A DNA stretch of 64,000 nt, taken from Bacteroidales bacterium (GTDB lineage Bacteria; Bacteroidota; Bacteroidia; Bacteroidales; UBA932). Shown in pieces: positions 56,294 to 57,901 of the stretch (position 1 is the stretch's first letter; every line of letters starts with the position of its first letter). The translations under genes and the position numbers were made by a program. The notes under the pieces are model-generated. The model searched no databases and had not been told where the DNA came from. It was given only the letters and a program-made list of their open reading frames with translations. The stretch covers positions 62,001-126,000 of the forward strand of contig JAFXFS010000018.1 of the NCBI GenBank assembly GCA_017513445.1, in the 5' to 3' direction.

Positions 56294-56397
56294 GAAAATA
56301 TCAATAAATGAAAAAAGTCGGTTTCAAAAATAGTGTTTTAAATCGATCATAGGTTGTATCAGTTTTTCCAGTATTCATAGGGGTTAGCTTTTCACTC

Positions 56398-56656
56398 ATT
56401 CTTGCGATGCACTCTTTTCAATCATTCCTGCGATGCACTCTTTTCAGTCATTCCCGAAATTGCTTCGGGAATCTGTTCCTTCCATCTGGCACACCCAATC
56501 CTTGCTAGAGTGCGTTCTGAGGCACATTACCCGATCCAGGTGGAAACACTCACCCTTCCATCTGGCACACCCAATAGATTGCCGGGCTGCGCCCAGCAAT
56601 GACGGAGGGAATCTGCGCACAGTAATGATGGAGGGAATCTGCGCACAGCAATGACG
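56398..56656. repeat. Palindromic repeat cluster (third)
   Basis: Two direct copies of about 25 bp (CATTCnTGCGATGCACTCTT) start at 56398 and 56423. A CATTCCCGAA / TTCGGGAATCTG element (56448-56475) follows. The spacer CCTTCCATCTGGCACACCCA occurs twice (56478 and 56553 region). Then comes AGATTGCCGGGC / GCCCAGCAATGACGG (56576-56604) and two shortened copies of its right half (GCGCACAGYAATGAYG). All belong to the dispersed family. Confidence 0.85.
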
Positions 56657-56666
56657 TGATGTAAAT

Positions 56667-56691: not shown

Positions 56692-56856
56692 CTTAAGTGT
56701 TTTCACAACGGAATAATCTTTATTGTGAATAAACGAATAAAACTAAAGATGTTGTCTACAAATTAAAAATACAAAATTGAATGCAATTCACAACGAATTT
56801 AGATTTGATAAATTGGAAATTGAAGACGGTAGCTATGTTTTCTATCTCACTGAAAT

Positions 56857-57120
56857 TTAGAAGTGCATAACCCCGTTCTTATCAGTGCGGGGTTCTTCTT
56901 CGTCTTCAAGGTCTGAAACAGTCTTATACACCCATTCCCCGTCCGCACCTTTGTATCGTTCCATTCGGTAACCTGCGATACGCTCATTGGCGGGGTCAGA
57001 AGTAAACTCCAAGAAGATACGTTCTTTCTCCTCCTCGGGCAGTGCTTCCCATTCTGCTGCCTGTCGCTCGTTGCGGGCTTCAACTTCCGCCCAAATTCTT
57101 TCAAATTCTTGGTCTGTCAT
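56857..57120 (-). CDS. Small acidic protein of unknown function, foreign composition
   Basis: An 87-aa ORF starts at ATG 57120 (MTDQEFERIWAEVEARNERQ); an in-frame ATG at 57144 would add eight residues. The protein is helical at the start (Ala/Glu/Arg-rich, WEALPEEEKERIFLEF) and strongly acidic (about 25 Asp/Glu against about 12 Lys/Arg), with no signal or membrane segment. Codons such as CGC, CGA, CCC, GAG and CTG are far more frequent than in neighbouring genes, and GC content is visibly higher, so recent acquisition is likely. It sits between two CRISPR-like repeats, downstream of the promoter-like motif in the right copy. No family is recognised. Confidence 0.6.
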   Translation of the reverse strand: MTDQEFERIWAEVEARNERQAAEWEALPEEEKERIFLEFTSDPANERIAGYRMERYKGADGEWVYKTVSDLEDEEEPRTDKNGVMHF

Positions 57121-57169
57121 ACGCTTGCTGTTTTGATGTTGCAAAATTACGTTGATGTTGTCTACAAAT

Positions 57170-57200
57170 CAAAGATACAAAATTGAATGCAATTCACAAC
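57170..57200 (-). promoter_or_regulatory. Promoter embedded in the right CRISPR-like repeat
   Basis: On the minus strand the repeat starts GTTG, then 19 bp, then TATCTTTG (57170-57177). This is an exact fit to the TTG-N19-TAnnTTTG Bacteroidota promoter. Transcription would start in the last third of the repeat and run through the acidic ORF to the terminator at 56667. Confidence 0.6.
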
Positions 57201-57288: not shown

Positions 57289-57385
57289 TATTAATCCTCC
57301 TTATTTATTTTATAACAAAGTATTAATCGTTTAATTTATACTACATTGCAGGAAACTTTAGTACAGCAATGAGGTGAAAGAATAA

Positions 57386-57598
57386 CAGATTGCCGGGCTT
57401 CGCCCAGCAATGACGTTACAATATTAGTCATTCCCGAACTTGCTTCGGGAATCTGTTCCTCTTCGTCATTCCTCCGACGCAAGTCGCGGGAATCTATGTT
57501 CCATCTGGCACACCTAACAGATTGCCGGGCTGCGCCCAGCAATGACGGAGAGAATCTTCGCCCAGCAATGACGGAGGGAATCTGCGCCCAGCAATGAT
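57386..57598. repeat. Palindromic repeat cluster (fourth)
   Basis: Elements in order: AGATTGCCGGGC / GCCCAGCAATGACG (57387-57414), GTCATTCCCGAA / TTCGGGAATCTG (57427-57454), a third with arms TCATTCCTCCGACG / CGCGGGAATCT (57466-57494), CCATCTGGCACACC spacer, AGATTGCCGGGC / GCCCAGCAATGACGG (57519-57547) and two copies of CGCCCAGCAATGA. Same family as the cluster at 56.4 kb. The remaining part of 57289-57642 shows only AT-rich sequence. Confidence 0.85.
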
Positions 57599-57901
57599 GT
57601 ATTTTTTGCTGTTGAATATTGTTTATTAGTCGGCTCAATTCTTTACAAGAACATAGTCATATATACAGGGATATAATCCACACCATTCTCTCGGCGAAGT
57701 CTCATAAATCGTTCTAAATCTATTTTATTATAAAAGTGTTTATATAATTTGATATTAAATCCGCAAAAAAAGTACTGCTACTGACTGATTATCAAGTGAG
57801 TAATAATCGGGTATATATTTAGCTGTTGCACTCTTTTAAGAGTTACCAAAAAATTTATCAGTTGAATAAAGAGCGTTCGCAGTACCAAAAACCAAAAAAT
57901 T

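Follow-up and report, generated by a model that had tools for sequence, protein, structure and literature searches.

The minus-strand segment from 57200 to about 56660 of the window (the whole 64,000-nucleotide stretch of Bacteroidales DNA analyzed here) most probably represents what is left of a type II-C CRISPR-Cas9 locus after deletion of its cas genes, a reading to which we assign a probability of about 0.87. An earlier note on this DNA had proposed either the remnant of a CRISPR array or a small element that has taken over a CRISPR repeat to serve as its promoter. The array remnant agreed well with what we found: the repeats belong to a type II-C family and have no further copies in the genome, cas9 and cas1 are absent, and a gene for the trans-activating RNA (tracrRNA) lies next to one of the repeats. 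The repeat family, the tracrRNA, the absence of Cas9 and Cas1, the junction between repeat and tracrRNA and the similar scars in other genomes are all read from the DNA itself.

Repeats and promoter-like boxes

Two direct repeats of 47 bp were located on the minus strand, R1 at 57154-57200 and R2 at 56748-56794, which are 406 bp apart from start to start and leave 359 bp between them. The earlier note had correctly recognized two near-identical copies, but gave them a length of 44 bp with 42/44 identical positions; the correct values are 47 bp and 45/47 (2 mismatches). The next best 47-nt match to the repeat in the window reached only 28/47, and a 31-nt repeat probe allowing up to 3 mismatches had two matches in the window, compared with 0.00 expected. 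When a 25-nt probe was used for the whole genome (1.62 Mb in 19 contigs, 99% complete), again with up to 3 mismatches, R1 and R2 were the sole copies, which excludes a repeat with many copies in front of unrelated genes. Neither the exact repeat in viral contigs nor a pattern of its 3' half in genome contigs gave a match.

Comparison with repeat collections revealed that the Rfam family CRISPR-DR49 (RF01362) matched both copies end to end, with scores of 32.8 bits for R1 (E 0.02) and 25.5 bits for R2 (E 0.82), both below the gathering score of 41. In addition, array repeats of relatives could be aligned with R1 and R2 over about 30-45 nt, with 83-94% identity; these matching arrays have a regular spacing of 76-78 bp and are sited past cas9 when viewed from the tracrRNA. 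The suggestion that the repeats are type II-C-like was thus borne out by both the Rfam family and the similarity to repeats of cas9-linked arrays, and on this evidence R1 and R2 are type II-C CRISPR repeats. They share with Bacteroidales type II-C loci (47-bp repeats of the CRISPR-DR49 family) the repeat length and the sequence GTTGTGAATTGCnTTC...TATCTTTGA, and the locus has in common with them the promoter consensus in the repeat, the tracrRNA core and the terminator. On the other hand, it lacks cas9 and cas1, has lost the tracrRNA promoter and half of the anti-repeat, and contains two repeats only, which are separated by 359 bp where about 30 bp would be usual, so that no array with spacers of about 30 bp is present.

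The earlier note had also reported a consensus promoter on the minus strand of the right repeat. Indeed, R1 contains GTTG-N19-TATCTTTG at 57200-57170, an exact match to the Bacteroidota-type promoter consensus that is unique in the window (0.10 expected). Both differences between R1 and R2 fall in the -7 box, which is mutated to TATTTTTA in R2. A second promoter-like match, TTTG-N20-TAATTTTG (57142..57173, minus strand), straddles the 3' end of R1 and the beginning of the insert just before the open reading frame (ORF) described below; matches of this type are common by chance (7 seen vs 3.5 expected). A promoter in each array repeat has been established for the type II-C system of Neisseria meningitidis (review, PMC5052741). 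The present locus resembles those arrays in having a promoter consensus inside the repeat, whereas here the consensus is kept in R1 alone, where it marks a putative promoter, and an ORF rather than a spacer lies downstream.

Intergenic repeats that do not belong to the relic are found on both sides of it. Dispersed repeats of the AGATTGCCGGGCTKCGCCCAGCAATGACG type occupy 56388..56660 on the left, and a matching cluster lies at 57347..57602 on the right (102-bp copies, 91% identical and 943 bp apart). This dispersed repeat has 63 copies in the genome when up to 3 mismatches are allowed.

The tracrRNA gene, its junction with R2 and the missing cas genes

The earlier note had recommended looking for cas9 and a tracrRNA, and a tracrRNA gene was found next to R2, on the minus strand at about 56730-56660. 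It comprises an anti-repeat remnant ATTCACAAT (56730-56722), a core reaching to about 56697, and a terminator hairpin (56691-56674) with a T-run to 56667. This terminator had been noticed before as the end of the putative small element; it is present, but it ends a tracrRNA gene that had been overlooked. No tracrRNA family was matched in Rfam, and therefore we read the block as tracrRNA because of where it lies, because it is complementary to the 5' end of the repeat and because it has a terminator. A 31-nt part of it (56730-56700, minus strand) is 97% identical in many relatives, and where cas9 is present in these relatives the block is divergent from cas9 at about 100-150 bp from the cas9 start. 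In an alignment of the window with 22 relatives, 30 columns were invariant in the 23 sequences, and such invariance of the core left a covariation test uninformative. The predicted fold has a free energy of -21.7 kcal/mol (z -4.8). The core carries one change over about 30 nt, a G-to-A at 56719 that breaks a nexus pair kept in 22/22 other sequences; such a single change could mean either a recent loss or residual constraint. We also observed that the invariant GTTGTGA in the core (for example, within window positions 56728-56700), which looks like the 5' end of a CRISPR repeat, can pair with the tracrRNA's own anti-repeat TCACAAT, and a self-occluding hairpin is possible.

The region between R2 and the tracrRNA (56731..56747, minus strand) appears to be a deletion junction. 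In relatives, the anti-repeat is longer (GAAGCAATTCACAAT) and is preceded at about 16-18 nt by a TAnnTTTG-like promoter; both the promoter and this longer form are missing here, and of the complementarity to the repeat the 9 nt of ATTCACAAT are kept while the upper part, GAAGCA, is gone. R2 and the anti-repeat remnant are separated by 17 bp, compared with 5-7 kb from the tracrRNA to the nearest repeat in intact relatives.

Neither of the two genes expected of a functional type II-C locus, cas9 and cas1, could be identified. Cas9 (TIGR01865) had no match in the 99%-complete genome, although the same probe matched 59/149 and 73/300 sampled genomes; thus, cas9 is absent from the whole genome and not merely from the window. 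Similarly, Cas1 (PF01867) had no match in the genome, whereas 9/14 control genomes matched. PF18541 was uninformative as a Cas9 probe because its controls gave no match. The absence of cas9 and cas1 cannot be attributed to contig ends, since the relic is located deep within a 202-kb contig.

These observations suggest the following history. The ancestral locus would have consisted of a minus-strand array, then cas genes on the other strand, and then the tracrRNA, which corresponds to the order of array, cas genes and tracrRNA in intact relatives. A deletion from just after R2 into the tracrRNA anti-repeat would have removed the cas genes together with the tracrRNA promoter and fused R2 to the tracrRNA, with drift afterwards, leaving R1, the 359-bp insert with its small ORF, R2, the tracrRNA and the terminator. 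If the relic is transcribed, transcription would start at the R1 promoter or the adjoining TTTG-N20-TAATTTTG, and the transcript would cover the ORF, R2 and the tracrRNA up to the terminator of the latter. In this way the ORF may have remained expressed. Without Cas9, no partner is known for the RNA parts, which are probably decaying.

Gene-sized DNA between type II-C repeats

The 359-bp insert that takes the place of a spacer (56795..57153, minus strand) has a GC content of 44.8%, compared with 37.4% for the window, and this GC-rich, foreign-looking DNA may have entered as foreign DNA between the repeats. It contains an ORF of 87 amino acids at 56857..57120 on the minus strand (ATG at 57120 to stop at 56857; a TTG at 57144 would give 95 amino acids), whose product is small and acidic. 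The GC3 of the ORF is 0.49, compared with 0.31 for the window genes, and its codon score of 0.122 is in the range found for pieces of real genes (5th centile, 0.089) and exceeds all 12 shadow ORFs (maximum, 0.071). By these sequence properties the ORF is probably a real gene that came from elsewhere. On the plus strand, a short open stretch with a C-terminal-looking translation (EFRFDKLEIEDGSYVFYLTEI followed by a stop; 56795..56860) begins at the R2 border and is convergent with the ORF; it is possibly the end of a gene that was cut at that border.

Phages and plasmids searched with tblastn, as well as viral contigs and 84,980 GTDB species genomes searched with peptide patterns, yielded no relatives of the ORF, and the insert had no match to phage records. 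Pfam and PHROGs gave no significant family for the ORF. An AlphaFold2 model built from the single sequence (mean pLDDT 76, pTM 0.41) retrieved nothing below E 0.3 in Foldseek searches against PDB and BFVD. A distant relative of the N-terminal half was found as a decayed frame in one genome, G623 (E 1e-5). With a two-row profile to which the G623 sequence contributes, a second, weak relative of this half was detected in G314, where it stands at the beginning of a 529-aa frame; from its translation, we take the remainder of this frame to be XseA-like (exonuclease VII large subunit). Short DNA matches to the ORF start in G009 and G053, the latter upstream of an integrase-like ORF, were not taken as homology.

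Inserts of gene size were also present between repeats of relatives. In six inspected loci (L062, L066, L068, L069, L076 and L082), gaps of 551-3678 bp were observed between repeats, compared with 363 regular intervals; it should be noted that the flanking repeat in L069 matched at 31/46 positions only, owing to an indel. The contents of the inserts were named partly by family search and partly by reading translations. Two of them (L082:6537-7457 in G058 and L066:2556-3494 in G018) contain a MuF-type C-terminal part, a terminator and a gpG N-terminal part, and both match one and the same region of viral contig L094 with about 74% identity; a third (L068:2835-6513, G129) carries a MuF-type gene with a toxin-like C-terminus. 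All three are inserts of Mu-like phage DNA, with those in L082 and L066 derived from one phage region. In other loci, we found HicA with a HicB-like neighbour (L062:6591-7635, G046) and a Phd antitoxin gene (L069:8640-9191, G141). Such inserts could originate from oversized capture, recombination or decay of array-side prophages, and an assembly error at the repeats is possible in each individual case. The earlier idea that a gene may have replaced a spacer fits the anatomy of the locus and has parallels in relatives. The genes between repeats in relatives face either way relative to the repeats, which indicates that promoter-borrowing is not the rule, and the repeats as general promoters for genes between them were rejected on the same ground.

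Several viral contigs carried parts of type II-C loci. Solitary II-C-like repeats were present in L088 (position 2306), directly between two phage ORFs, and in L089 (position 2643), and in L090:71-148 a mini-array of two repeats adjoins phage late genes. A tracrRNA was located on two viral-classed contigs (L092:1027-1056 and L093:1230-1259), each of which has a tyrosine-recombinase-like gene at a distance of a few hundred bp to 2.3 kb; L093 also has the start of cas9, and integration beside a CRISPR locus is possible in these two cases.

Scars in related genomes and alternative explanations

To what extent similar relics occur in the family was examined in 300 genomes, which were searched for tracrRNA sites and then for cas9. 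A total of 69 tracrRNA sites were identified in 59/300 genomes, and cas9 was missing at at least 15/69 sites (the window included) with at least 500 bp of sequence on the cas9 side. In G260 (L133), an orphan tracrRNA is immediately preceded on its 5' side by a repeat, in the same orientation as in the window, and a worn repeat occupies this position in G355 (L132). In G037 (L064:516-1166), a repeat is followed by a Phd-type antitoxin gene, a cut toxin-like frame and then an orphan tracrRNA. A GNAT-like gene is found 3' of the tracrRNA in two relics (L133 and L134) and in the intact locus L082, and purB has this position in relic L108 as well as in L017, a locus with the beginning of cas9 at the end of its contig. 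These shared 3' neighbours imply that the orphan tracrRNAs are remnants that stayed in place when the cas genes were lost. Hence, wrecked CRISPR-Cas9 loci of this sort are common in related genomes. Orphan tracrRNAs without cas9 were observed at L103, L104, L105, L107-L110, L127, L128 and L132-L135; some stand just 5' of purB, thrC or dprA on the same strand with their promoter boxes kept, and some of the genomes carry Cas9 elsewhere.

The coincidence of a relic with the site of an intact locus was seen for these other relics, in genomes of other genera than that of the window. The searched genomes include none of the same genus and so did not show the ancestral locus of this particular site; the amidase and ZIP neighbours that the relic has in the window were not beside the tracrRNA in the other loci examined. 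In addition, the undamaged state of R1 and the single change in the tracrRNA core count against a relic.

Other explanations should be considered. It is quite improbable that the locus is a functional orphan, in which the fused R2 and tracrRNA would act as a single-guide-like or decoy RNA binding the Cas9 of incoming mobile elements, with the ORF as a companion such as an anti-CRISPR. One transcript could indeed hold the repeat, a partial anti-repeat, the nexus and the terminator, the R1 promoter consensus is intact, the small acidic ORF has gene-like codon usage, and orphan tracrRNAs are frequent, several of them with promoter boxes kept. However, only 9 nt of the anti-repeat are left, a nexus pair has been disrupted, R2 has a mutated -7 box and the ORF matches no Pfam or PHROGs family significantly. 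Furthermore, natural single guides (tracr-L-like) pair repeat and anti-repeat in one transcript, whereas the predicted fold here pairs the anti-repeat remnant with the 3' part of the tracrRNA and not with R2. An RNA-based anti-CRISPR (Racr, a solitary repeat unit; PMC10651486) left by a prophage has a very small likelihood. The relic is similar to such units in that a repeat carries a promoter consensus of its own and cas genes are lacking, and single II-C-like repeats do occur on rare viral contigs (L088 and L089). Unlike a Racr, which would be one repeat in the genome of a virus or mobile element, the relic is chromosomal, with two repeats, an attached tracrRNA and no nearby phage genes; its exact repeat was found in no viral contig, its insert and ORF match no phage record, and the neighbouring ORFs look chromosomal.

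The Bacteroidota promoter consensus in the repeats might also point to a dispersed, promoter-bearing repeat that has nothing to do with CRISPR, or the repeats might be due to chance, but both can be regarded as excluded by the two copies genome-wide, the CRISPR family match and the adjacent tracrRNA. The small element proposed in the earlier note, which would borrow the repeat as its promoter, was not supported either: there are no other copies, the relatives of the ORF are weak and in other contexts, and genes between repeats occur in either orientation.

Degraded, cas-less type II loci are already known, and the window adds a further case. The second locus of Spiroplasma syrphidicola EA1, for example, has an array and a predicted tracrRNA with no identified cas genes (PMC6882279). 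The relic is similar to it in combining repeats and a predicted tracrRNA without cas genes, and differs in the fusion of repeat and tracrRNA, apparently by deletion, and in the gene between the repeats. We found no description, in the literature searched, of the frequency of such repeat-tracrRNA scars and gene-bearing intervals in the family. A repeat directly 5' of a tracrRNA core without cas9 offers a search rule for counting CRISPR-Cas9 losses, and a tracrRNA by itself is no evidence of a working Cas9 system. Inserts of gene size between II-C repeats recur, including phage MuF/gpG and toxin-antitoxin-type genes, and their origin is testable. More speculatively, and with a rather low likelihood, foreign gene-sized DNA may repeatedly lodge between the type II-C repeats of Bacteroidales by oversized capture or repeat-mediated recombination; cas loss would then strand the captured gene between a repeat-borne promoter and the tracrRNA terminator, giving a CRISPR-derived gene cassette, of which the window would be one example that is possibly still expressing its gene.
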